This document shows, piece by piece, positions 741 through 14,377 of a stretch of 64,000 bases of DNA (its first letter is position 1; each line of letters starts with the position of its first letter). Source of the DNA: Methyloceanibacter sp. wino2 (GTDB lineage Bacteria > Pseudomonadota > Alphaproteobacteria > Rhizobiales > Methyloligellaceae); NCBI RefSeq assembly GCF_003071365.1, contig NZ_CP028960.1, positions 1,302,001-1,366,000 of the forward strand. The letters are read 5' to 3'. Made by a program: the position numbers and the translations under genes. The notes beneath the pieces are model-generated. The model was not told the origin of the DNA and searched no databases. It saw nothing but the letters and a program-made list of their open reading frames with translations.

Positions 741-1838
741 TCAGCGCACGAGAATTGCGTGATTATCCCAGTGAAAACGCGTGGAATGGCGCGGGCCGAG
801 GCCGTCCGCACTGCCCGACAGGAGCCAGCCCTCGCCGCTGGTGAGCAAGAATGTCGCACCCTTGTGGGTCGGCGCCAGTCCGCAGCCGTCGCGCAGACTG
901 CACGATCCGAGAAAGCGTCGTGCTTTCGGGTCCCAATAGGTCACGACCCCACCCTTCGGCGCGGACGCCGCCACAACCGAGCCATCCGAATCGGCCGTCA
1001 CCGACCCGATGTAGTTCTTCAGGGTGAGTTGAGTCTCTTCCGGCGCCGGAATGACGGTCAGCGTTTCACCGCGCCGGTGGAATCCCATCAGCGGCGGCAG
1101 GTCGTCGGCATCGCCGCGATACTGGCAGCCGAACGCCACAATATCATCGCCCGCGACCGTCAGATGGCGAATGGACAGACGGCGAAGTTCCTCGGGGTGA
1201 CCGTGCCGCTCCAGCAGGTCCCCCGTCTCGAGATCCACATAGGTGAGCGACGGCTCCATGACGGCGAGGTTCAGTTCCTCGCGCCTGCGGTCCGGATGGG
1301 TCTGAATGCCGCCATTGGCCACGACCAGCGTGCGCTTGTCGGAGAGCAGCGCCAGATCGTGCGGGCCGATGCCGTGGCTCGGAATCTCTCCGATCTGACG
1401 ATAGCCGGCTCCCGCGTCGCGGACGCCGATCACGCCGCGCCCGCCGTCGTAATCGTTCTCGGTCGTGTACAGCAGCCTGCCGTCGGCGGAGAACACACCA
1501 TGCCCATAGAAGTGCCGGCCGGGACGGGCCGAGAACCAAACCGGCTTACGCGCATCCATGGGGACGGCGACGCCGAAACGGCCGGGGCGTCGCGCGAATG
1601 CCACCCATTCCGAGCCGCCCGGACGCAGCGCGACATCGTGGCCGCGGGCCGGCAGCAGGACTTCGCGAATGTCGCCGCGTTCGAGGTCGAACAGCGCCGC
1701 AGAATAGTTGCCTTGGTCGTCCTTGCGCGCGGCGGCGAAGCGCTCCGGCAACGACGCGGCGGCAAGCTCTGCGGGAACGGTCAGCGCCAGCGAGGATCCG
1801 GCCAGCGCCGTGAGAAACGTGCGGCGGTTGAGCGTCAT
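741..1838 (-). CDS. DUF1513 family exported protein
   Basis: The 365-residue product starts MTLNRRTFLTALAGSSLAL, a twin-arginine-type signal (NRRTFL plus a hydrophobic stretch), so export to the periplasm is likely. The rest is a DUF1513 beta-propeller-like protein. It has repeated blocks such as GRHFYGHGVFSADGR, IPSHGIGPHDL and VANGGIQTHP that recur in this family. No catalytic function is established. DUF1513 genes commonly sit next to imelysin and DUF1111 genes, and here the start follows the imelysin stop by two bases, which indicates translational coupling. The family is usually discussed with iron-regulated envelope clusters. Its role in metal handling is inferred from context only. Confidence 0.85.
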   Translation of the reverse strand: MTLNRRTFLTALAGSSLALTVPAELAAASLPERFAAARKDDQGNYSAALFDLERGDIREVLLPARGHDVALRPGGSEWVAFARRPGRFGVAVPMDARKPVWFSARPGRHFYGHGVFSADGRLLYTTENDYDGGRGVIGVRDAGAGYRQIGEIPSHGIGPHDLALLSDKRTLVVANGGIQTHPDRRREELNLAVMEPSLTYVDLETGDLLERHGHPEELRRLSIRHLTVAGDDIVAFGCQYRGDADDLPPLMGFHRRGETLTVIPAPEETQLTLKNYIGSVTADSDGSVVAASAPKGGVVTYWDPKARRFLGSCSLRDGCGLAPTHKGATFLLTSGEGWLLSGSADGLGPRHSTRFHWDNHAILVR

Positions 1839-1840
1839 GG

Positions 1841-2944
1841 CTAGTCTCCATCACCTGCGTTGAAACCGAAGCTGAGCCCCGCACCCTCGGCAATCAATAC
1901 GGATGCGGTGGTGTTCGCGCTCTTCAAACCGACGCGCAGGGCCTCGAGCTTACCGCGCTGTTCGGGGTCGGTGACCACCTCGGCTACCGGCTCGGTTTCG
2001 GCGCCAAGAACGTCGATACTGCGCTTGAGGTCGAACACGACCGAGTCTTCGACGCCCGGCGACTGGTCGGCAACGATCCCCGCAAAGCCGCCCTCGACGA
2101 ACAGGGCCTGCACGAACTGAAGATTGACGGTCATGTTCGGAAAGGTCTGCCCGCTCCGCCAGAACGCTGCGAGGCGCGGGCGTGCGCGCTCGGCGGACTC
2201 GCTCAGCACCCGGCCGAGCTTTTGATCGCGCACCCGTTCGATGCCGCTGCTGAAGGCCTTGAAGAGTTCGAGCGTGACGTCTTTCGGCGCGCGGTAGAGC
2301 ACGCCGTCGGGCTCGGGTTCCAGGAAGCTCTTGGTGAACGGCGCATCGGGCGCCCACGCCTCGACAAGGTCTTTGGAGAGTTGCGCAATATTGTCAGTCA
2401 CTGCCGCGGCGAAGCGGCAGCGAAACACCGCATCGTCTCCGGGGCTCGCAAGGGCGTCGGATCCCTTGCCGTAAAGAAGAATTTCGAGGGCCGGCAAGCC
2501 CTGCAGTGCGACACTCTTCTTGGCGAGCGTCCCCACACTCGTGACACTCTCGTCCTTATCCAAGAGGACCCGCTGGACCTGCCGGTAGCCGAGGCCCTTC
2601 CGGTCCGGCCAAAAGAACAGCCGCTCGTAGCGATGCTCGTGATTGACCGGTCCGAACTGAAAGATCTCGACCGCGCTCCAACCCTCGACGGCCGCAACGA
2701 ACGCCGCGCGGGCATCTGCCAAAGCCTTGTCGGAGGGATCCCTACAGAGCATGGCGGTCACGGCCGCCAAGGTCGCGGCATCGTCCGCGAATGCCTCGTA
2801 ACCCGGCCGTATGACTTTCGTCAGCGCGGCCTCGGCAACGGCGCCATGATCCGCCTCCGCCCGCGCCGCGGGCCCGGCCGAACCAAGAGCAAGAAACAGA
2901 ATCCCGAGGGACAGGGCCGAATGGAGGAAACGGGTCATTGGCAT
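1841..2944 (-). CDS. Imelysin-family periplasmic protein (variant lacking the GxHxxE histidine)
   Basis: The 367-residue product has a signal peptide (MPMTRFLHSALSLGILFLAL...AARA) and an imelysin (peptidase M75/EfeO-like) fold. Family signs are the N-terminal GYEAFADDAATLAAV helix, FGPVNHEHRYERLFFWPDRKG and the PALEILLYGKG segment. In canonical imelysins the latter reads GxHxxE. Here it is GLPALE, so the histidine is replaced by proline. The related gene at 6525-7802 keeps GYHAVE. The loss suggests altered metal binding. The gene sits between the di-heme DUF1111 gene and DUF1513 and is probably cotranscribed with the riboswitch-controlled porin. The ATG two codons downstream (2938) is an equally possible start, as neither has a strong ribosome-binding site. 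Confidence 0.85.
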   Translation of the reverse strand: MPMTRFLHSALSLGILFLALGSAGPAARAEADHGAVAEAALTKVIRPGYEAFADDAATLAAVTAMLCRDPSDKALADARAAFVAAVEGWSAVEIFQFGPVNHEHRYERLFFWPDRKGLGYRQVQRVLLDKDESVTSVGTLAKKSVALQGLPALEILLYGKGSDALASPGDDAVFRCRFAAAVTDNIAQLSKDLVEAWAPDAPFTKSFLEPEPDGVLYRAPKDVTLELFKAFSSGIERVRDQKLGRVLSESAERARPRLAAFWRSGQTFPNMTVNLQFVQALFVEGGFAGIVADQSPGVEDSVVFDLKRSIDVLGAETEPVAEVVTDPEQRGKLEALRVGLKSANTTASVLIAEGAGLSFGFNAGDGD

Positions 2945-2992: not shown

Positions 2993-4563
2993 CTAGAGCG
3001 AGTTCAAAAACGCCAGGAGGCGTTCCCGATCCTCCTTGTCCAGCGAGGCAAAACGGTCGCGGGCCGCTTGGCCCTCGCCGCCGTGCCACAGGATGGCCTC
3101 CGTGAGATTACGGGCCCTGCCGTCATGAAGGAACTGGGTGTGGCCGCTCACCGTCTCGGTCAGACCGATACCCCAGAGCGGCGGCGTACGCCATTCGCTC
3201 CCAGTTGCCTTGCCGTCCGGCCGATCGTCCGCCAGCCCCTCGCCCATGTCGTGGAGCAGCATGTCCGTGTACGGCCAGATGAGCTGGTTCGACAGGTGGG
3301 TCTGCTCAGGCATATCGCCGGTCGTGAAGTTGGGCTGGTGACATTGAGCGCAGCCGACCTTGTAGAAAAGCTCTTTGCCCTTCAGCACCTCGGGCGCATC
3401 CACGTTCCGGCGCGGCGGAACCGCCAGGTTCTGCGTGTAGAACGTCATCAGATCGAACAGCTCGTCGCCCACTTCCACGTTCTGGTACTTGGGCGAGTTG
3501 CCCGACGGCGCGTCGATGCACGACGTCTGCCTCTCGGTGCATTCGCCGGCGCCGCTCGGATGCAGCGTCGTCGAGATGCCGATGTCACCGGAAAACGCAT
3601 CGGCGTTCTGTTCGACGATGGTCGGCACATTCGCCTTCCAGCCGAAACGGCCCAGCATCTCCTTGTCATGCAGCTTGGACCACATCCGGTTCGGACGGCC
3701 TGAAATACCGTCCCCGTTCGCATCGTCCGGGTCGGCGTTGGCCATGATTTGCTCTTCCGGAACCGCCTCGAGCAGTCCGAGCCCGATCATTGGCGGGGCG
3801 ATGCGCGGGCCCACCATCACGTCCGGGCTGATGGGACCGTAGTTGAGTCCGGTCAGTTCGTAGTGCGGCGCGCGCAACGAGACTGTCTCGCCGTCCCCGA
3901 GCGAAACTTCTTTCTCCTCGTAGGACACTTTGACGGCGCCCTCGGCGTCGTGGCCCTGGATCGACATGTCCTGCAATTGCCCGCCGTAGACAGGCTCAGG
4001 CAGCACCGTCACCTTGCCGGAGGCGAGGAGAGCCTTCTCGTCATCGGTCTTGGGGGGCACGGAAAGACGGAACAGGAGCGAGGCCGTCGGTCCCGGCGTG
4101 TTCGAGGCGAGCGGAGGATGGCCGCGTCCGTCCTTGAGGTGGCAGTCCTGGCAGCCACGCACATTGAAGAGCGGCCCCAGGCCGTCCGAGGCATCGGTCG
4201 AGGCGGGCGCCGAAACCCAATGCCGCCGGAAAATGCTGTTCCCGATTTTGAAGTCGAGTTCCTTGCGGAACCCCATATTGCCGGATGATTGCGAGAACGC
4301 GTTGGCGGTGTCGGTCGCGGCACGGGATGTGGCGCCGCCGCCCGGCCGGTCTTCGCCCGGCTCGGCTTTCGTGAAATCGATCGCCGGCACCGGCACGTCG
4401 GGCGCGCCCGCTCCGCCGGCGGAGCGCGCGTACAATACGAGACCCGCCAGCAGAGGTACGCAGGCCCCAACAAGAAGGACACCGCCAAGCCATGCTTTCG
4501 CGTGACTTGACGGTGCTGTCGGGTCGACTGACTCTGAGAAGGCGTGAACCGTACTGTGTTCAC
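2993..4563 (-). CDS. DUF1111 di-heme c-type protein (thiol oxidoreductase-like), 5' end problematic
   Basis: The frame ending at 2993 encodes an exported protein with a hydrophobic N-terminal segment (AWLGGVLLVGACVPLLAGLV) and two c-type heme sites: CQDCH (bases 4139-4153) and CAQCH (3338-3352). Blocks such as VRGCQDCHLKDGRGHPP and DGRARNLTEAILWHGGEG identify the DUF1111 family, which is related to MauG-type di-heme enzymes and has unknown substrates. It lies 14 bases after the porin stop. Oddity: the frame has no ATG, GTG or TTG between the porin and the middle of the membrane segment. A GTG at 4563 with an upstream AAAGGTGG is well placed but is in another frame, so one missing base in the sequence, a true frameshift or a non-standard start must be invoked. 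I used 4563 as the provisional 5' end. Confidence 0.75.
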
Positions 4564-4575
4564 GCGCCCACCTTT

Positions 4576-5976
4576 CTAGAACGCGAACGTGCTGCGAGCG
4601 CCAATGACCGTTGCATTGTCGGCTTCTACGCCGCCATCCGGGTTCATGATGTACTGGAAGTCCGGCTGCAACGTCCAGCCGTCGATGACCTCCATGGTGT
4701 AAGCGATCTCGATCAAGGCCTCGTAGCCCTCGCCGGCCGGATCGCCGTTGGTAACATTGAACGCCTGCGCCTGATCGGAAATGCTCGAATAGGCATAACC
4801 GATGGCCAGTGCGTCGTTCGGACGGCCCGGGATCATGCCCGTCATGGTCACACCCACGTCGAAGTAGAAATCGACATAGTTTCGATCGTCCGGCGCTCCG
4901 GCGAAGCGGGTGAAGAAGCCGAGGCCCTGCCCCTCTTCCGTACCCGGCGCGTGCCACAGAAGCTGATCCAAGATCACATAGAGAGCGTAATCGTTGTCCA
5001 GCGGCTTGCCGTCCTTGCCGGAGATCGCGATGGGGTTGCCGCCTACATCGGTATAGATGTGGTTGAAGTCCCCGAAGTGGTTCCAACCACCGATCTTGAT
5101 CGAACCCGGCAGTTCACCGCCCGCCAGCGAATAGCTGTAGGCGCCTTCCGCCATCAAGAGCGTCCGATCGCGCAGACCGAAATCCAGTCCGTCGTTGTTG
5201 CACACTTGCGGATCGTCCGCGGCGCAGTCCGGAGCCGGATTACCGTTGTAGACACCGACCATCAGGCTGGTTTGCTCCGTCGGCGTGACGGCGACACGAA
5301 CGCCGGGCGTGGCCAGCGGGTAGGCCGGACCGCCGCCGGGGTTGTTTTCGGCCGCGATCGGCGCCCACCCCCACGTGCCGTTGATGAAGTAGCCACCGCC
5401 TTCAGCGAAGAAGAACTCGGCGTCCGCCGCGAGCTGACCGACCTTGACCGACACCGTGTCGTTGAACAGGAACTGCTCGAACCAGATCTCGAACAGGCGC
5501 GTCGCGTCGTTCGCCTCGAAGCTGGTGACCGGCATCAGGGACCCGATATTGGAGCCCGTGATGGAGTTGCCGTGGATCTGGTAGCCATTGGCGTGGAAGC
5601 AAAGACCGTCCCACAGACCGAGCTTCTTCATGTCGGCGTTGACGTAGAGCTCGAGCACACCTTGATACTCGCCGCCCTCGTCGGTGCCGCCCCAATTGTA
5701 GAACGGCTCGGCGACATAGGCGCCGCCGATGTCGATGCCCGTGTTGTTCAGCGACCCGGTCATGCCGCCCTTCGCGCCGTCGATGAAGTCGAGCTTTCCG
5801 TTGGCCCCTGAGGCAAACCGATCGTACGGATCTTCCGGGATCTCGCAGGCGGCGTTGGCCGCGGCCGGTGCAAGGACGAGTGCGAGCGCACCGAACGCCG
5901 CAGCGCGCAGCCCCTTGCCGATTTGAAAGCCTGTAGGAACGCGCAACGCGCGTGGAGAATTCTGTGTGTCGGACAT
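4576..5976 (-). CDS. OprB-like (carbohydrate-selective type) outer-membrane porin
   Basis: The 466-residue product starts at the ATG at 5976, which is preceded by GGAGGGA. It has a signal peptide (GLRAAAFGALALVLAPAAANA). The mature part has OprB family traits: long beta-strand-like alternation, FFTRFAGAPDDRNYVDFYFDVG, DALAIGYAYSSIS, and near the C-terminus LQPDFQYIMNPDGG, ending in phenylalanine as outer-membrane barrels do. The same frame stays open further upstream, but that extension runs through the cobalamin riboswitch and is not coding. OprB porins usually pass sugars. Control by a B12 riboswitch suggests that this one serves uptake of cobalamin-related or cobalt-related solutes, but that is inference. 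It is the first gene of a four-gene run with the DUF1111, imelysin and DUF1513 genes. Confidence 0.9.
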   Translation of the reverse strand: MSDTQNSPRALRVPTGFQIGKGLRAAAFGALALVLAPAAANAACEIPEDPYDRFASGANGKLDFIDGAKGGMTGSLNNTGIDIGGAYVAEPFYNWGGTDEGGEYQGVLELYVNADMKKLGLWDGLCFHANGYQIHGNSITGSNIGSLMPVTSFEANDATRLFEIWFEQFLFNDTVSVKVGQLAADAEFFFAEGGGYFINGTWGWAPIAAENNPGGGPAYPLATPGVRVAVTPTEQTSLMVGVYNGNPAPDCAADDPQVCNNDGLDFGLRDRTLLMAEGAYSYSLAGGELPGSIKIGGWNHFGDFNHIYTDVGGNPIAISGKDGKPLDNDYALYVILDQLLWHAPGTEEGQGLGFFTRFAGAPDDRNYVDFYFDVGVTMTGMIPGRPNDALAIGYAYSSISDQAQAFNVTNGDPAGEGYEALIEIAYTMEVIDGWTLQPDFQYIMNPDGGVEADNATVIGARSTFAF

Positions 5977-6088
5977 TCTTCCCTCCGAAGCCGAGTGACT
6001 AAAAAATCGCGTCAGCGCTTTCGGAGAATTCCGGCGGAAGATCCCGACAATGTGCGAACACCCCCGTTCGCCCATCAGCCCTGTCACG

Positions 6089-6276
6089 GTTGAAGGCAGG
6101 TCTCCTGGCTCACGGTTCATCGCTTTCTGCCCGACCTTCCCGGTTGCCCAGTGGTCACATTTGGCAGCGAGCTCACCGCTCACAGTTGCGGGGGCAGCCA
6201 CGGCTTCGGCGCCATAGAGGCACACACCGTGTTCCCTTTTCATCCTCTCGGAACGAGTCTTCGAGGAACCTTCAAC
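6089..6276 (-). promoter_or_regulatory. Cobalamin (adenosylcobalamin) riboswitch
   Basis: Read on the minus strand, the segment shows the class signatures in the right order: AAAAGGGAACACGGTG, then GGCTGCCCCCGCAACTGTGA, then CCACTGGGCAACCGGGAAGG, then the B12 box AGCCAGGAGACCTGCC. The ends pair as helix P1: GTTGAAGG (6276-6269) with CCTTCAAC (6096-6089), eight perfect pairs. The leader continues 112 bases to the porin start. It contains a 6-bp hairpin (6054-6071) and a TCTTCC (6036-6041) complementary to GGAAGA of the Shine-Dalgarno region, so control of translation initiation is plausible. A T run at 6001-6006 on the transcript strand leaves termination possible too. Cobalamin is expected to repress the porin and its downstream genes. 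Confidence 0.95.
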
Positions 6277-6282
6277 AGCCAC

Positions 6283-6311
6283 AAGCTGTCCTCTGGCGCT
6301 CATACTGTCAA
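6283..6311 (-). promoter_or_regulatory. Possible promoter of the riboswitch-porin transcript
   Basis: On the minus strand a consensus TTGACA (6311-6306) is followed after 17 bases by CAGCTT, a poor -10. The implied start of transcription falls at about 6276, exactly where helix P1 of the riboswitch begins. The position is convincing and the -10 is not. Confidence 0.35.
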
Positions 6312-6418
6312 TGGGTCGAGCACCCGACCCTCTGCGATCTTTTGTCATTCTTTCAGCCCCCCAACGGCTTCAGGTTCTATTCTGCTAATCGTCTTCGGCT
6401 GTTTTTCGCCGTTGATCC

Positions 6419-6452
6419 GACTCGGAATGCGTAAAATACAACATTCCGAGTC
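6419..6452. repeat. Perfect 11-bp inverted repeat downstream of the imelysin gene
   Basis: GACTCGGAATG (6419-6429) and CATTCCGAGTC (6442-6452) are exact reverse complements around a 12-base, A/T-rich centre. It lies 72 bases after the imelysin stop and upstream of the porin leader. In the direction of the minus-strand genes no T run follows. On the plus strand ATCTTTTCTC follows, but no plus-strand gene ends here. It may be a U-poor terminator or a regulator site. Confidence 0.5.
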
Positions 6453-6524: not shown

Positions 6525-7802
6525 CTATTCAGCTCCCACCTTCTCGGGCGCATCGAGACTGTCCGATCCCTCGAACTCGATGGCTTTCAGATCCAGCGTT
6601 GCCACGGCCCGCTCGATCGCCTTGGTCTGAACGAGCAGAGCGTCGACCACGTCCTGGACGACCTTGTTGCCCTCGTCGTTCCCCTCACCAATCATCTGGT
6701 CGTAGTTCTCGGTGGTCAGAGCACGCAGATAGAGCGTGTTCATCGCGTCCATGGTGGCATCGAGCGCGGCGATGACTTCGGCGTCTACTTTCGGATCCTT
6801 GGCCTTGACCACATCCGAGACACTCGGGCCCGAAACGACGGAGCCGTCGGCGCGGCGATAGCGGCCCGTGTAGACATTGTGGATGCCGAGCGCGTCGAAG
6901 AAGTGTGCGGCATGGGTGTTGTCGGAGAAGCAGTCATGCTCCTCTTCCGGGTCGTGCACCATCAGGCCGAGTTTGATGCGCTCGCCGGCCAGCTCGCCAT
7001 AAGACAGGCTGCCGAGACCGGTCATGATGACGGTCAGGCCGCCTTCATCGCCCGCGTCCATGACGGCCTTGCGCGCATCGCCGCCTTCTTTCCACTGATC
7101 GGCCATCCACTGCAGATCGTCGATCAGGAGTTGGGTGACGGTGCTCAGGTACTCGGCGCGCCGTTGGCAATTGCCGTTGGAGCAGTTCTTCAGATCGTAG
7201 TCGGACGCGGGACGCTCGCCGGCGCCGGGCTCCGTGCCGTTCAGGTCTTGTCCCCAAAGTAGGAACTCGACCGCGTGATACCCCGTCGCCACGTTCGCCT
7301 CGACACCGCCCGCTTCCTGCAGCGTGTCGGCAAGCAGCGCTTTCGTGATCTTCGAGGTATCGATCTTCTTGCCGCCGAGCGACAGGGAGACGTTCTTGAT
7401 CACGTCGGCCACGTAGAGTTCGTTCTCGGGCGACTCGTCACCATAGACCTCGGCGACGTAGTCGATCAGACCTTCGTCCAGCGGCCAGGCATTCACCTTG
7501 CCTTCCCAATCATCGACGATCGGATTGCCGAAACGGTAGGCCTCGGTCTGCATGTAGGAGGGGCGCGCGGCGATCCAGGCGGCGCGGGCGGCGCGCAGGT
7601 TCGACTCCGTCGGGCTCTCCAGGAACTCGTCGATCGCGAGCTGCATGGTCTTGGCAGTCTCAAGCGAATCTTCGTATCCGGCCTGCGCGATGTCGGCGTA
7701 ATTCTTCAAAACGTCCTTAGGGCTATCGGCCAGCGCGGGCGAGACGTAACAGCCAAACGCCAGGACAGCCGCCGGCACCATCGTCTTTAGTCCTCGAAAC
7801 AT
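6525..7802 (-). CDS. Imelysin-family periplasmic protein (IrpA-like, M75)
   Basis: The 425-residue product starts at the ATG at 7802, which has a strong GAGAGGGAG ribosome-binding site. The signal peptide (MVPAAVLAFGCYVSPALA) is followed by an imelysin domain. The family motif GxHxxE is present as GYHAVEFLLWGQDL, and YGDESPENELYV and HDCFSDNTHAAHFFDALGI are further conserved blocks. Imelysins of this class are periplasmic or outer-membrane-associated, bind iron in characterised relatives, and are induced by iron limitation in some bacteria. An earlier peptidase label (insulin-cleaving) comes from one member only. The gene is separated from the porin by 548 bases that hold the cobalamin riboswitch, so it probably has its own promoter. 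A LysR gene is divergent. Confidence 0.9.
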   Translation of the reverse strand: MFRGLKTMVPAAVLAFGCYVSPALADSPKDVLKNYADIAQAGYEDSLETAKTMQLAIDEFLESPTESNLRAARAAWIAARPSYMQTEAYRFGNPIVDDWEGKVNAWPLDEGLIDYVAEVYGDESPENELYVADVIKNVSLSLGGKKIDTSKITKALLADTLQEAGGVEANVATGYHAVEFLLWGQDLNGTEPGAGERPASDYDLKNCSNGNCQRRAEYLSTVTQLLIDDLQWMADQWKEGGDARKAVMDAGDEGGLTVIMTGLGSLSYGELAGERIKLGLMVHDPEEEHDCFSDNTHAAHFFDALGIHNVYTGRYRRADGSVVSGPSVSDVVKAKDPKVDAEVIAALDATMDAMNTLYLRALTTENYDQMIGEGNDEGNKVVQDVVDALLVQTKAIERAVATLDLKAIEFEGSDSLDAPEKVGAE

Positions 7803-7871
7803 CGAACTCCCTCTCAAGTTGCTACGACTCGCCGGTCGTTTTCTATCTAAAATCACCAATTTCGATCGCTT

Positions 7872-8058: not shown

Positions 8059-8071
8059 ATAGTTGAATGAT

Positions 8072-9001
8072 ATGCATCTTAAGGAAGTCGACGCCAATCT
8101 GCTCGTGACGCTCGATGCACTGCTGGTCGACGCCAGCGTCACACGTGCCGCCGAACGGCTCGGGCGCAGCGCCTCCGCCATCAGCCATGCCTTGGCTAAG
8201 TTGCGGGAATTGTTTGACGATGAGCTTTTCGTGCGCGCCGGGCAGAGGCTTGTTCCAACCGCCCGGGCTCAGGAACTAGCGCCGACGGTCCACGTGATCC
8301 TCGCGGGCATGGAGAGCCTGCTTCGTCCCAACAAGCCGTTCGACCCGTCGCTGACGATGCGCGCGTTTGCCGCAGCCTCCAGCGAGGCCGGCGAATTGAT
8401 CCTCATCGAGCCACTGCGCAAGCGGTTGCAGGAGGGCGCGCCGAGCGTCCGGGTCGATTGGACGTCGTCCAATATGGAGTCGATTATCGACGAGTTGCGC
8501 AACGCGCGCTGCCACTTCGTCATCGACATCATGGGCGAGAGCGCCCAGGCGCCGGACGTACGCGCCGCCAAGCTTTTCGACGACGAACTCGCAACCCTGG
8601 CGCGGCCGGGGCACCCGTTCTCCAAGCGGCGCCCGAACGGCGAAGCCTTCGCCGGTGCGGAGCACGTGGCCGTTCACTCCCTCCCAGGGTTCCAAGGTCT
8701 CGCCGACCGGCTGGCGCAGGCGGGGCACGACATCCGGCGAACGTCGCAGGTCTCCTCCGCGCTTGTGGGCGTCATGGCCACGCTCAACAGCGATGCCCTG
8801 CTTACGCTCCCGGCCTCACTCGCAAGCTTGCTGGAACGGCAGTTCGGCCTCTCGCGGATCAAGCAACCCGTCGAGCCCGTGACGTTTCCCGTGCGCCTCC
8901 TGTGGCACACGAGCTACGACCGCGACGAGTGCCATCAATGGCTGCGCGGCGAGTTCTCGCTTCTAGCCCAAGAGCTCCTGGCTCAGGACGTGGCGGGCTA
9001 G
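8072..9001 (+). CDS. LysR-family transcriptional regulator
   Basis: The 309-residue product begins MHLKEVDANLLVTLDALLVD, the classical LysR winged-helix N-terminus. The recognition region VTRAAERLGRSASAISHALAKLRELF covers about residues 25-50. A substrate-binding domain of the periplasmic-binding-protein type follows from about residue 90, and is most similar in layout to the NodD/LeuO-like group. A TTG three codons upstream (8063) is an alternative start. Neither has a clear Shine-Dalgarno sequence. It is divergent from the imelysin gene, so that gene is the obvious candidate target, but the effector is unknown. The alpha-2-macroglobulin gene follows after 159 bases and appears unrelated. 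Confidence 0.9.
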   Translation: MHLKEVDANLLVTLDALLVDASVTRAAERLGRSASAISHALAKLRELFDDELFVRAGQRLVPTARAQELAPTVHVILAGMESLLRPNKPFDPSLTMRAFAAASSEAGELILIEPLRKRLQEGAPSVRVDWTSSNMESIIDELRNARCHFVIDIMGESAQAPDVRAAKLFDDELATLARPGHPFSKRRPNGEAFAGAEHVAVHSLPGFQGLADRLAQAGHDIRRTSQVSSALVGVMATLNSDALLTLPASLASLLERQFGLSRIKQPVEPVTFPVRLLWHTSYDRDECHQWLRGEFSLLAQELLAQDVAG

Positions 9002-9160
9002 CGTCAAATCATTGGCAATGGCCCGTCCGTCGGGCGTTTGCGGCGCGGTCACGTTGCGGCCGACCGGCCCACAACCGCTCAATTGTTTCCGTCATGATGC
9101 TCCGCTACCATGGCCTCCTCGCCCGCTCGCCGCCGAGGGCCGGGCGTCTGGAGGACACCC

Positions 9161-12100
9161 ATGGTTGTGTGGTTTCGCACCGGCTTTGCCGCTGTGCTTT
9201 TCGCCTGCGTCTCCCTATCCGCTTTCGCCGCCGACAAGACCTATCAAGACGACGCGCTGGACGAAGCGGCCATCACGCTCAAAGTCGACCTCAAGAACGA
9301 GTCCGGCACCATCGAGCGGCCCGTGCCGATGCTGAAGGAGCAGGCCGCCGTGCAGCTGCGGAAGCAGTCTCTCGGGAACGCCGCCTTTATCTATGGGCAG
9401 ATCGTTACCGCCGCGCCGAACGACTCCGAGGCTTGGCGGCGCCTTGCCGACATCTGGCTGGCCATCCCGCCGGACGAAGACGACGATGGCAGCGAGCGCT
9501 ACCGCGAAGCCAGAACTGCCGCCTATATCGCCTACACACAGGCGAAGACACCGAAGGGCCAAGCCGCCGCACTCGGGTCTCTCGCCAACGCGTTCGCCAA
9601 GGGCAGCGAGTGGCGTCCGGCGCTGAACGCGCTGCGGCTTGCCACCACGCTCGACGACGATCCGGGCCTGGCGGCCACCTACGCTCAGCTTCGCGAGAAA
9701 TACGGATTCCGGGTCGCCGATTTCAGCGTGGATTCCGACGCGACCTCACCCCGGGCATGTTTCCAGTTCACCGAGCCTCTGCTTGCGCGCGCGGACTACG
9801 CTCCATTCGTCGCCGTCGCCGGCGAGGACAAACCGGCCCTGTCGCTCGATGACAAGCAGCTTTGCGTGGAGGGCCTGAAGCACGGCGAGTCCTATAATGT
9901 GACCTTGCGTGCGGGGCTGCCCTCGTCCGTCCACGAGGATCTCATCAAGAACGCCCCGTTCACGATCTATGTGCGCGATCGCACGCCGTCGGTACGGCCC
10001 GTGGGCAAGGCGTACGTACTGCCCAGCACCGGGCAGCAGGGCATTCCGCTCCAGTCGGTCAATACCGGCGCACTCGACGTCACGCTGTATCGCATCGGCG
10101 ACCGCAATCTGCTGGGGACCGTGCTCGGCTACGACTTTCAGCGCAATCTCTACGGTTACAGCCTCGAAAACATCGCGGATGAAAGCGGCGAGGAAGTTTG
10201 GAGCGGTTCGCTCAAGGTCAAGAAGGACCTGAACAAGGACGTGACGACGGCCTTCCCGATCAGCGAGGCCGTGCCCCACTTGGCGCCCGGCATCTATATC
10301 CTCGCCGCGCGGCCCTCCGACGTTCCGGGCGACGACTACGGCGAGCGCGCGACCCAATGGTTCGTTGTCTCGGACTACGGGCTGACGGCCTATTCCGGCT
10401 CGGACGGTATTCATGCCTTCGTCAACTCGCTCGCCACGACGGAGCCGATCTCCGGCATCGAACTGCGGCTGATCGCCCGCAACAACGAGGTTCTCGGCAC
10501 AGCAACGACCGATGCGGACGGCGCAGTGACGTTCGCGCCGGGTCTCGCGCGCGGTAAGGGCGGCCTTGCGCCTGCGCTGCTGGTGACGGGCGCCACGGAA
10601 GGCGATTACGCCTTCCTCAACCTGAAGACACCGGGCTTTGATCTGACCGACCGGGGCGTGGCGGGGCGGGATGCGCCGAAGGGCCTCGACTCCTTCGTCT
10701 TCACCGAGCGTGGCGTCTACCGCACCGGCGAGACCGTGCACATCACGGCTCTGCTCCGGAACGCTGCGGGGATCGCCGTGCCGGACCTAAACGCGACACT
10801 CGTTGTCGACCGGCCGGACGGCATCGAGTATCGCCGCATAGTCGCGCAGGACGCAGGGGTCGGCGGCCTGTCCGTCGATCTGCCGCTCATCGCCGCCGCC
10901 CAGACCGGCACGTACCGGGTCAAGGTCTATTCGGATCCGAAGGCGGCGCCGATCGGCGAGACGAGCTTCCTCGTCGAAGACTATGTGCCAGAGCGGCTCG
11001 AATTCGACATCTCCACCGATGCGAAAAGCCTGTCGCAAGCTGCCCCCGCCAAGATCGCCCTCGACGGCCGCTTCCTGTACGGGGCGCCGGCATCGGGACT
11101 TCCGGTCGACGGCGAATTGAAGGTCACGGCCACCAGCGCCCGGCCCGGATACGACGGCTTTGTGTTCGGCACCAAGGACGCCGACAGCGGCGAGAATTTC
11201 ACCGTCGAGACGCTGCCGCTCGCGGATCTCCCTGAAACGGACGCCAATGGCCAAGCTACGTTCGACGTGGCGCTCGGCGCCTTGCCCGCCGCATCGCGCC
11301 CGCTTCAAGCCAAGATCGTGGTGCGCCTCGCGGAGCCCGGCGGCCGCGCGGTCGAGCACGATCTGACGCTGCCGATCGAGCCGAAGGCGGACATGATCGG
11401 CGTGAAGCCTCTCTTTAAGGGCACGGCCCTGAGCGACAACGACATCGCCAAGTTCGACGTGGTGATGGTCGCGCCCGACGGCACGCAACTGGCGAGCAAA
11501 GGCCTGAAATGGCAGCTGCTGCGCATTGAGCGGAAGTACCAGTGGTACCGCCAATACGGCAGCTGGAACTACGAGCCCATCAAGGTCACGCGCCGTGTCG
11601 CGAACGGCGTGATCGACGCAGGCGCGGACGCGCCCGCATCGATCGAGATGCCTGCTTCCTGGGGCCGCTACCGGCTCGAGGTCGAAAGCCCCGACCCGCT
11701 CGGTCCCGTCACGACCTACGGCTTCGACTCCGGCTGGTACGCTGAGGCCAGCGCCGATACGCCCGACCGCCTCGAGATCGCGCTGGATAAGTCCGGCTAT
11801 GCGGAAGGCGACACGATGAACGTCGCCGTGACCGCGCGCGCCGCCGGCACCGTCACGCTTTCTGTGATCGGCGACAGGCTCCTCACCCAGAGCACGGCCG
11901 ATGTCGAACCCGGCCTCACGACGATCCCGCTCACCGTCGGTTCGGACTGGGGGACGGGCGCCTATGTGCTGGCGACGCTCCGCCGTCCGCTCGATGCGGC
12001 GGCCAAGCGCATGCCGGGCCGGGCCATCGGCACGCAATGGTTCAGCATCGACAAGGCGCAGAACACGATCGGCGTCGCGATGGACCTGCCCGATCTCATC

Positions 12101-14377
12101 CGCCCCAACTCGAAGCTGCTCGTGCCGGTTAAGCTCACGAACCTCGTGCCGGGCGAGCAGGCGCACATCGTCGTTTCGGCGGTCGACGTGGGCATCCTCA
12201 ATCTCACCGGCTACGAGCCGCCGAACCCGGACGAATACTATCTCGGCCAACGCAAGCTTTCTTCCGAGGTCCGCGACCTCTACGGGCAGTTGATCGACGG
12301 CATGCAAGGAACGCGCGGCCAGATCAGGACCGGCGGCGATGGCGGCGCCGGAACGCTCCAGGGCAGCCCCCCGTCCGGGCCGCCGCTTGCGCTCTACTCG
12401 GGCATCGTCACTGTCGGCGACGACGGCACCGCGGAGATCGAATTCGACATTCCCGCCTTCACGGGAACGGCGCGGGTCATGGCCGTCGCCTGGAACAAGA
12501 CCCAAGTTGGACACGGGTCGGGCGACGTGATCGTGCGCGACCCCGTGGTGGTGACGACCACGCTTCCGCGCTTCCTGCTCATGGGCGACCGCTCGACGCT
12601 GCGCCTTGACCTCGACAATGTCGAAGGCGCGAGCGGCGACTACACAATCGCGCTGGCCGCGACAGGTCCCATTGCGCTGCCCAAGACGGAGAGCGTGCTC
12701 GGCATTGACGCCAAGACGCGCAAGGCCGCGTCCTTCGAGCTTGCGGCACTCGGCGTCGGCGAAGGCAGCGTCGACATCACCGTGAGCGGCCCCGAGAGCT
12801 TCGAGGTCGCGCGGCGCTACACGATCGAGGTGCAACCGGCCACGCAGATCTTTGCGCGCCGTACGGTGACACCGCTTGCACCCGGCAAGAGCATCACGCT
12901 CTCCAATGATGTGTTCGCCAATCTCGTGCCGGGAACGGGCAGCCTCGCACTCTCCGTGACGCCGACCGCGGCGCTCGACGTCACCGGCCGGCTGGCGGCG
13001 CTCGACCGCTACCCGCTGGGGTGCACCGAGCAGATCGTGAGCCGCGCGCTCCCGCTCCTTTACTTGAGCGAGCTGGAGACGGAACAAACGCCAGACCCGG
13101 ATACGGCCAAGCGCATCGATACCGCCATCGAGACCGTGCTGGCCCGTCAGGGCTACGAAGGCGGCTTCGGCCTGTGGTCGCCCGGCGGCGGCGATGCTTG
13201 GCTCGATGCCTATGTCGCCGACTTCCTGACGCGCGCGCGGGCCCAAGGCCACGCCATCCCCGACGAGCGCTTCAAGCTCGCGATCAACCGCTTGCGCAAT
13301 TATGTGAGCACCGCGCCGGACGTCTCCAATGACGGCGGTCTAGCCCTGTCTTACGCGCTCTATGTGTTGGCGCGGAACGGGGCGGCGCCGGTGGGCGATC
13401 TGCGTTACGTGGCCGACGTGAAGATGAGCCAGCTGGGTTCGCCTGCGGCGCAGGCCGAAATCGGCGCGGCGCTCGCCATGCTCGGCGACCGCGTGCGTGC
13501 CGAGAAAGCGTTCCGCGTCGCCGCAAGTGCGCTTCCCGATGAGATCGTGACGACGAACGGCCGTGTCGACTTCGGATCGCGGCTGCGGGACGCGGCCACG
13601 GTGGTGACCCTCGCCGCCGAAGGCAAAGCGGCGGAGCCGATCCTCGTCAGTGCCACGAAAGAGATCGGCGTTGCCCGCAAGGCCGTGACCCGCACATCGA
13701 CGCAGGAAGACGCCTGGCTCATCCTGGCCGCGCGCGCTCTCGGGAACCAGGGCGTCGAGCTCGACGTCGCATCGGGCGCGGCCGAGCCTATCCCGCAGAG
13801 CGGCCCGCTCTATCGGGACTACAGCGAAGAGGACCTCGGCATCAGTCCGGTCGCGGTGACCAATCGCGGCAGCGCGCCCGTCGACGTGGTGTTCTCTGTT
13901 TCCGGCGCACCGACATCGCCCGAGCCCGCAACCGACAGCGGCTTTGCGCTCGAGCGCACCTTCCACACGCTGGACGGCCAGGAGGTCGACATCGCCGAGG
14001 CCAAGCAGAACGAACGCTATGTGGTTCTGCTCTCCGTGACGGAAGCCAAGCCGCAATTCGCGCGGGTCGCCCTGACCGACCACGTGCCCGCGGGCTTCGA
14101 GATCGACAATCCGAAGCTGGTCTCGTCGGCGGACACGGGCGGACTGCCCTGGATCACCCATGCGGCACGTCCGGTGCACACGGCGTTCCGTGACGACCGC
14201 TTCGTGGCGGCGTTCGACCGCACCGCGAAGAGCCCGGTCGTCTACCGCGTCGCCTATATCGTGCGCGCCGTCTCGCCGGGCACTTATGTGCTGCCGCAGG
14301 CAAGTGTCGAAGATATGTATCAGCCCGACCGCTTCGGCCGGACGGCGACGGGCACGGTGAAGGTAACGGCGCGCTGA
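9161..14377 (+). CDS. Bacterial alpha-2-macroglobulin (thioester type)
   Basis: The 1738-residue product starts at the ATG at 9161 (GGAGG six bases upstream), which leaves out an in-frame ATG at 9110. The N-terminus MVVWFRTGFAAVLFACVSLSAFA is a signal peptide. LFAC resembles a weak lipobox, so either secretion or lipid anchoring is possible. Macroglobulin-like domains fill most of the protein. The thioester motif is GCTEQ with Cys1288, inside the conserved DRYPLGCTEQ block, and is followed by the alpha-helical thioester domain (EGGFGLWSPGGGDAWLDAYV). Such proteins trap attacking proteases in the periplasm. The stop codon overlaps the pbpC start by one base. This pairing is widespread and couples protease defence with peptidoglycan repair. 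Confidence 0.95.
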   Translation: MVVWFRTGFAAVLFACVSLSAFAADKTYQDDALDEAAITLKVDLKNESGTIERPVPMLKEQAAVQLRKQSLGNAAFIYGQIVTAAPNDSEAWRRLADIWLAIPPDEDDDGSERYREARTAAYIAYTQAKTPKGQAAALGSLANAFAKGSEWRPALNALRLATTLDDDPGLAATYAQLREKYGFRVADFSVDSDATSPRACFQFTEPLLARADYAPFVAVAGEDKPALSLDDKQLCVEGLKHGESYNVTLRAGLPSSVHEDLIKNAPFTIYVRDRTPSVRPVGKAYVLPSTGQQGIPLQSVNTGALDVTLYRIGDRNLLGTVLGYDFQRNLYGYSLENIADESGEEVWSGSLKVKKDLNKDVTTAFPISEAVPHLAPGIYILAARPSDVPGDDYGERATQWFVVSDYGLTAYSGSDGIHAFVNSLATTEPISGIELRLIARNNEVLGTATTDADGAVTFAPGLARGKGGLAPALLVTGATEGDYAFLNLKTPGFDLTDRGVAGRDAPKGLDSFVFTERGVYRTGETVHITALLRNAAGIAVPDLNATLVVDRPDGIEYRRIVAQDAGVGGLSVDLPLIAAAQTGTYRVKVYSDPKAAPIGETSFLVEDYVPERLEFDISTDAKSLSQAAPAKIALDGRFLYGAPASGLPVDGELKVTATSARPGYDGFVFGTKDADSGENFTVETLPLADLPETDANGQATFDVALGALPAASRPLQAKIVVRLAEPGGRAVEHDLTLPIEPKADMIGVKPLFKGTALSDNDIAKFDVVMVAPDGTQLASKGLKWQLLRIERKYQWYRQYGSWNYEPIKVTRRVANGVIDAGADAPASIEMPASWGRYRLEVESPDPLGPVTTYGFDSGWYAEASADTPDRLEIALDKSGYAEGDTMNVAVTARAAGTVTLSVIGDRLLTQSTADVEPGLTTIPLTVGSDWGTGAYVLATLRRPLDAAAKRMPGRAIGTQWFSIDKAQNTIGVAMDLPDLIRPNSKLLVPVKLTNLVPGEQAHIVVSAVDVGILNLTGYEPPNPDEYYLGQRKLSSEVRDLYGQLIDGMQGTRGQIRTGGDGGAGTLQGSPPSGPPLALYSGIVTVGDDGTAEIEFDIPAFTGTARVMAVAWNKTQVGHGSGDVIVRDPVVVTTTLPRFLLMGDRSTLRLDLDNVEGASGDYTIALAATGPIALPKTESVLGIDAKTRKAASFELAALGVGEGSVDITVSGPESFEVARRYTIEVQPATQIFARRTVTPLAPGKSITLSNDVFANLVPGTGSLALSVTPTAALDVTGRLAALDRYPLGCTEQIVSRALPLLYLSELETEQTPDPDTAKRIDTAIETVLARQGYEGGFGLWSPGGGDAWLDAYVADFLTRARAQGHAIPDERFKLAINRLRNYVSTAPDVSNDGGLALSYALYVLARNGAAPVGDLRYVADVKMSQLGSPAAQAEIGAALAMLGDRVRAEKAFRVAASALPDEIVTTNGRVDFGSRLRDAATVVTLAAEGKAAEPILVSATKEIGVARKAVTRTSTQEDAWLILAARALGNQGVELDVASGAAEPIPQSGPLYRDYSEEDLGISPVAVTNRGSAPVDVVFSVSGAPTSPEPATDSGFALERTFHTLDGQEVDIAEAKQNERYVVLLSVTEAKPQFARVALTDHVPAGFEIDNPKLVSSADTGGLPWITHAARPVHTAFRDDRFVAAFDRTAKSPVVYRVAYIVRAVSPGTYVLPQASVEDMYQPDRFGRTATGTVKVTAR

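Follow-up and report, generated by a model that had tools for sequence, protein, structure and literature searches.

Why should a cobalamin riboswitch, of the kind that governs btuB and cob operons, stand in the leader of an OprB-type porin gene, and what would such a porin admit? The question arises from a 64-kb stretch of DNA of Methyloceanibacter sp. wino2 (the window, 64,000 nucleotides; all positions below refer to it unless another locus is named). We lean, by a little, toward the view that a class-I riboswitch, spliced in as a cassette, represses a metal-linked porin, and that this porin likely admits cobalt. Genomes and loci are given by our handles (G and L), the genome of the window being G000, in which the window spans C1:1302001-1366000.

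The riboswitch and the operon behind it

The only match over gathering score in an Rfam scan of the whole window is the cobalamin riboswitch RF00174 at 6288-6078 on the minus strand (124.4 bits, E = 8.6e-31, model positions 1-189 of 189; gathering score 31.5 bits). The covariance-model check proposed by the first-pass annotation thus gave a full-length match far over gathering score, and the 8-bp P1 helix and B12 box that it had claimed are present. The conserved core, GGCTGCCCCCGCAACTG, lies at 6199-6183 on the same strand. The features of the locus, in the direction of porin transcription, are as follows.

8063-9001, plus strand: divergent LysR-type regulator gene, part of the conserved neighborhood (Pfam)
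6525-7859, minus strand: imelysin-family gene 1 (PF09375), upstream of the riboswitch (Pfam)
6419-6452, minus strand: strong palindrome lying after imelysin 1 and ahead of the porin leader, near the position of the Zur-like site of some relatives
6346-6364, minus strand: surviving old ribosome-binding site and ATG of the porin (TTGGGGGGCTGAAAGAATG), resembling the starts of riboswitch-less orthologs
6306-6311, minus strand: TTGACA, a −35-like hexamer just upstream of the riboswitch (putative promoter)
6078-6288, minus strand: cobalamin riboswitch aptamer (RF00174; covariance model, full length)
6089-6276, minus strand: span of the P1 helix, 6276-6269 paired with 6096-6089 (8 bp)
6099-6109, minus strand: B12 box, GCCAGGAGACC (covariance model and sequence)
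6054-6071, minus strand: P13-like hairpin, GCGAAC-GGGGGT-GTTCGC (covariation, six-sequence alignment)
5983-6026, minus strand: Shine-Dalgarno-sequestering hairpin, 6026-6017 (CTCCGAAAGC) with 5991-5983 (GCTTCGGAG)
5981-5986, minus strand: Shine-Dalgarno sequence GGAGGG of the porin (sequence)
4576-5976, minus strand: OprB-family porin gene, 466 aa (PF04966, PDB profile search, fold match)
2993-4563, minus strand: di-haem oxidoreductase gene, DHOR (PF06537; Pfam)
1841-2944, minus strand: imelysin-family gene 2 (PF09375; Pfam)
741-1838, minus strand: DUF1513 gene (PF07433; Pfam)

The gene behind the riboswitch is indeed an OprB-like porin. It scores 268.8 bits against PF04966 (cut-off 22.9), and a profile of 14 porin relatives matches two PDB sequences, P. 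putida OprB 4gf4 (E = 2.2e-37) and 4gey (4.7e-37). The best fold match of the porin model is likewise 4gey (TM 0.69/0.76, E = 5.3e-24), from a model of modest confidence (mean pLDDT 64, pTM 0.65). The porin starts at the ATG at 5976, 101 bases downstream of the riboswitch end and preceded by GGAGGG (5986-5981); the extent first given for it, 4576-6276, runs into the riboswitch, and a 590-aa open reading frame (4576-6348) passes through it.

The porin heads an operon in the order porin, DHOR, imelysin 2 and DUF1513, with imelysin 1 upstream. Gene content and order are those of the imelysin-DHOR-imelysin-DUF1513 operon, which we take to be COG3487-3490; here an OprB porin and a B12 riboswitch are added. 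Of the earlier proposal that the next three genes share the riboswitch's control, the common direction is plain from the map, and DHOR, imelysin 2 and DUF1513 are probably controlled along with the porin. Imelysin 1 scores 132.7 bits against the LruB model, below its cut-off of 850. At about 4523, close to the start of DHOR, a difference of one base breaks the frame of its GTG-started ORF, which is intact in all five aligned relatives; the break may be a real mutation or a sequencing error. Downstream of the LysR gene lies a gene for a bacterial alpha-2-macroglobulin-like protein (9110-14377, plus strand, 1755 aa). Among imelysin-DHOR loci elsewhere, that of G033 gave no OprB match, and that of G030, from another family, holds an unrelated gene (L149 2244-3563) in the porin slot between imelysin 1 and DHOR. 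By eye its product looks like a secreted or outer-membrane protein, and it has no Pfam, NCBIfam or PDB match at the thresholds used.

Upstream of the aptamer, TTGACA is kept in all five aligned carriers, and the contig of G009 ends short of it; both leaders of a second porin family have TTGACG at this position. No good −10 is visible for the hexamer and the promoter scan did not list it either, and we take TTGACA to be the probable promoter of the riboswitch transcript. Downstream of the aptamer, the G-rich loop of the P13-like hairpin could kiss loop L5, which falls within 6154-6135, in the manner of class-I switches; the complementarity was read by eye. In a six-sequence alignment, 94.4% of the cells of a two-helix platform pair, compared with 29-46% in slid controls, and 8 of 500 shuffles were equally good. 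All three both-side changes fall in P13 (three of its six pairs); when the alignment is widened to seven sequences, this covariation is equaled by 63 of 500 shuffles and is not convincing.

The second hairpin, which would hide the Shine-Dalgarno sequence, is paired in 96.3% of cells over the six sequences, with no pair changed on both sides. In platform-only folding, GGAGG is buried in G000 (unpaired probability 0.13 or less), G004 and G003, mostly so in G014, partly hidden in G007 and exposed in G009. RNAalifold favors a fold of longer range, in which the Shine-Dalgarno region pairs with the 3′ strand of P1; such a fold would be in competition with the P1 helix. A transcription terminator in the platform was considered and rejected, as the minus strand has no terminator-like site between riboswitch and porin; a run of U residues near 6000 has interruptions in G003 and has not been conserved in G007 or G009.

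Given the Shine-Dalgarno-hiding hairpin, the P13-like hairpin and the competing P1/Shine-Dalgarno pairing, we infer translational control, switched off by AdoCbl by analogy with btuB. Thus, when AdoCbl is plentiful the riboswitch would repress porin translation, and when B12 is short the porin would be made. The element resembles the class-I riboswitches of btuB and cob operons in aptamer, B12 box, P1, P13-like hairpin and Shine-Dalgarno-hiding platform, but differs from them in governing an OprB porin operon and in being a cassette that lies downstream of an older start, which survives.

Recurrence, patchy distribution and an exchanged leader

The pairing of riboswitch and porin is not confined to this locus. 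A search of other genomes, which had been suggested at the outset, gave 10 riboswitch-OprB pairs in nine of 61 genomes, all of one family (two in G000 and one each in G003, G004, G005, G007, G008, G014, G020 and G021). The pairs were read by eye from the RF00174 and PF04966 tables of the same 61 genomes, the former made with stricter filters by which weak riboswitches may be lost; 20 of these genomes have any OprB match. The pair of G020 lies beside cobW, DBI_PRT (CobT-type) and CobS genes. The 3.21-Mb genome G000 has six RF00174 matches, one of them weak (C1:2495095, 37.5 bits), and four OprB loci, two of which are riboswitch pairs, where about 0.008 would be expected (3000 genes assumed). 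The adjacency of riboswitch and porin is not chance.

The second pair of G000 lies outside the window (L007 3659-5367; C1 about 887,658-889,366), and its porin is frameshifted. The next gene encodes a TonB-dependent receptor of siderophore type (TIGR01783), not of B12 type; a CusB/HlyD-type gene also lies near this locus. Around this porin, 10,829 bp are 100% identical in G005, although the window porin operons of the two genomes differ by about 10%, and a recent transfer of the stretch is therefore likely.

Beyond the family the picture changes. A class-wide survey found porin profile matches in 12 of 115 genomes including G000, that is, in 11 of 114 outside the family. Seventeen loci were scanned for RNA families (one from each of the 11 other genomes, four more from G086, and two of the other OprB genes of G000); none has a sense riboswitch upstream of the porin and one has a divergent riboswitch, with the leaders of L124 and L125 little covered because these match the porin's C-terminal end only. 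In G103, a distant porin homolog and a riboswitch-led gene for a NicO nickel/cobalt transporter are divergently oriented. At L064 (G059), a riboswitch heads an apparent metE gene (by eye) about 3 kb from the porin, and was left out of the pair count. No riboswitch was found at the imelysin-DHOR loci of G001, G030 and G033.

Within the family, 13 porin orthologs lie in the conserved neighborhood. RF00174 stands upstream of the porin in five (G000, G004, G003, G014 and G007; 113.7-124.4 bits) and is absent in seven (G005, G010, G013, G011, G008, G015 and G018). The remaining leader, in G009, keeps only the 3′ half, with B12 box and platform, no Rfam match and no recognizable 5′ half; it lies near a contig end. 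This count omits G016 (a porin fragment) and more distant copies such as L057 and L058; some of the 13 neighborhoods are cut by contig ends, and G007 and G018 are without imelysin 1 beside the porin. Orthologs regularly without the riboswitch had been counted in advance against the first-pass reading, and with seven of 13 lacking it, B12 control is best read as a local, recombined-in layer and not as the porin's defining control. The riboswitch is scattered over the trees built from DHOR, from LysR and from the body of the porin: G000 and G004, for example, have it, and their close relative G005 is without.

Traces of how this layer arrived are visible in the leaders. Those without the riboswitch start the porin with a G-rich ribosome-binding site (GGGGGGCTGA-N-ATG in G005, G010 and G013). 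G000, G004, G003 and G014 retain this old site and ATG, then have the riboswitch, and then the new start. Between G000 and G005, identity is 0.89-0.91 in imelysin 1 and 0.89-0.94 in the rest of the porin; nothing aligns over 6290-6078, and identity is 0.47 over 5977-5750, so that the collapse spans about 6349 to 5750. Because identity is near 0.9 on both sides of this collapse, promoter, riboswitch, platform, signal peptide and first codons appear to have been exchanged together; and because the old ribosome-binding site and ATG survive ahead of the riboswitch in four carriers, the insertion was probably made behind the old start. The proposed cassette, made up of a promoter of its own, the riboswitch, the Shine-Dalgarno-hiding platform, the start codon, the signal peptide and the first 75 or so codons, would have been placed by recombination after the original start codon; several relatives have a Zur-like operator at this porin operon. 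The riboswitch seems to have travelled together with promoter and signal peptide as a single cassette, and the case looks a clear one.

In G007, the upstream place of imelysin 1 is taken by what remains of a TonB receptor gene, whose 98 residues are 54% identical to the second-locus receptor; this hints at a recombination route. The old ATG lies 372, 408, 408 and 408 bases upstream of the present ATG in G000, G004, G003 and G014, in frame and with no stops between, and the other two frames hold three to eight stops. A translated override through the riboswitch was considered, but substitutions among three equal-length sequences do not clearly favor any codon position, and this frame would stay open by chance with a probability of about 0.1-0.4 per pair; we treat it as coincidence. 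Inverted repeats of the type GCGTTGC-N5-GCAACGC occur after the old ATG and upstream of TTGACA in L046, L048 (imperfect) and L056; the repeat is absent in G000, whose stretch is 36 bases shorter.

Zur-like sites and the metal link

What controlled the porin before the riboswitch may be read from its relatives. In many proteobacteria, Zur sites are reported to share the conserved pattern GTTA-5N-TAAC (PMC4176598). With at most one mismatch, a putative GTTA-N5-TAAC site is present in six of the 12 porin leaders scanned (all but G009), exact in G013 and G008 and with one mismatch in G005, G015, G003 and G014; the last two carry site and riboswitch together. Among the seven riboswitch-less leaders, two sites are exact (0.004 expected) and four have at most one mismatch (0.22 expected). 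At the same threshold the leaders of G000, G004, G010, G011, G018 and G007 have no site, and neither do nine LysR-imelysin intergenic regions. At the imelysin-DHOR loci of G001 and G033 there is none near the operon genes, and that of G030 lies inside a gene. The palindrome at 6419-6452 of G000 misfits the pattern (three mismatches by eye); a counterpart occurs in L046 and a similar one in L050.

Elsewhere in G000, a search with the related pattern GTTATAAYATAACA (up to two mismatches) gave 10 rows at four places, against 4 for the reversed control. These near-matches adjoin a Zur-like regulator gene (59.8 bits, equivalog cut-off 167; PF01475 24.0 against 23.1), ZnuA/AztC-type and ZigA genes (ZigA 603.1 bits, over its cut-off of 600), a DUF1826 gene and a ZnuD-like receptor gene (152 bits, below cut-off). 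DUF1826 is listed among Zur-regulated COG0523 clusters (PMC2770081).

The six putative Zur-like sites lend themselves to another explanation, namely that the porin serves zinc, general divalent-metal or small-solute traffic, and that B12 control merely balances metal supply without a special role for cobalt. An imelysin-type gene, irpA, also appears in a riboflavin/iron transcriptome table of V. cholerae, where its function is given as unknown (PMC5816637). We regard this explanation as unlikely, as it would not account for the repeated presence of cobalamin riboswitches before OprB genes, at several loci and in one case among cob genes. A special form of it, in which B12 shortage makes the cell need zinc for MetE, was considered and rejected for G000, which gave no MetE match.

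Related species hold the same porin operon with a Zur-like site, with a riboswitch, with both or with neither, and such mixed leaders allow direct tests of which solute the porin takes and of how a metal-linked operon changes once a B12 riboswitch is added. If the proposal is true, one and the same porin would in G003 and G014 respond to zinc at the level of DNA and to B12 at the level of RNA.

Cobalt, B12 supply and the solute of the porin

Three further riboswitches of G000 point toward cobalt and B12 supply. One heads a DUF4198-CbiM set, in which CbiM is over its model cut-off and CbiQ- and CbiO-like genes were recognized by eye. The other two, divergently oriented, stand before a HupE/UreJ-type gene and before genes that look by eye like cob genes. 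G000 thus seems to make B12 from cobalt, given its cob-type genes and CbiM. It has MetH, gave no MetE match and has no BtuB-type (TonB-B12) receptor above cut-off, with seven weaker matches; this cut-off is strict, as only E. coli passes it among three control genomes. On this combination (MetH without MetE, CbiM-type import, cob-type genes and no BtuB above cut-off), the best fit would be a cobalt step in the outer membrane that is induced by B12 shortage. The porin would open the outer membrane to cobalt, as Co2+ or a small cobalt chelate, and would feed the separate, likewise riboswitch-led CbiM-type cobalt importer.

The first-pass annotation had suggested a link to cobalt or to B12 supply, and the family-wide pairs, the cob neighbors in G020 and the NicO neighbor in G103 make such a link likely. 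It is tempting to go further and to see here a dedicated outer-membrane cobalt porin, that is, a Zur-type metal porin turned into a B12-demand-controlled gate by a mobile riboswitch cassette; this we offer tentatively, as possible rather than probable. The nearest solved relative, P. putida OprB, is a carbohydrate porin by family name and speaks against the cobalt reading, and no cobalt site was identified in the porin.

Known systems offer partial parallels. In Novosphingobium, a cobalamin-riboswitch-led TonB-dependent receptor gene is followed by NiCoT permease and CobW genes (PMC7689651); both loci place an outer-membrane gene under B12 control with a link to cobalt genes, but the receptor described there is TonB-dependent whereas the window encodes a passive-type OprB porin. 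The same 2021 review states that a cobalt-specific receptor of the outer membrane had yet to be confirmed (PMC7689651). Geobacter sulfurreducens has an OprB-family gene with a Fur box by feoAB (PMC545781). In both cases metal-type regulation has led to the proposal that an OprB-family porin admits a metal ion, there with iron and Fur, and no riboswitch in the account cited, and here with B12. Anabaena porins with OprB domains show copper, zinc and manganese phenotypes (PMC9705863). A full-text literature search for B12 or cobalamin riboswitches with OprB returned only OprB with Fur; it did not cover the early comparative genomics of B12 regulons, and an earlier mention is possible.

Perhaps, instead, the porin admits cobalamin or other corrinoids and so replaces BtuB. 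B12 control and the lack of a BtuB-type receptor above the strict cut-off would suit such a role, as would the TonB-dependent receptor gene at the second riboswitch-porin locus. Yet cobalamin, at about 1.35 kDa, greatly exceeds in size what OprB-type channels usually pass, G000 seems to make its own B12, and by its score the receptor at the second locus is one for siderophores. We consider corrinoid uptake quite unlikely. We find it hardly probable that this is an ordinary porin for sugars or other organic solutes, as the family name and the P. putida OprB structures would have it, because Pfam finds no sugar gene in the operon and its immediate neighbors, the imelysin and DHOR neighbors are conserved and regulation in relatives is of metal type.

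Equally doubtful is the idea that the riboswitch is a recombination passenger without a present role, or that the operon is decaying, an idea that draws on the patchy distribution, the DHOR frame break, the lack of a Zur-like site in G000, the broken second porin in its 10.8-kb stretch identical between G000 and G005, and an aptamer identity (0.76 with G003, 0.85 with G014) no better than that of flanking genes. Against it, the aptamer keeps its high score in all five carriers, the TTGACA hexamer is retained in five of five, and platform identity is 0.89 with both G003 and G014, compared with 0.77-0.87 for imelysin 1 and 0.73-0.82 for DHOR.
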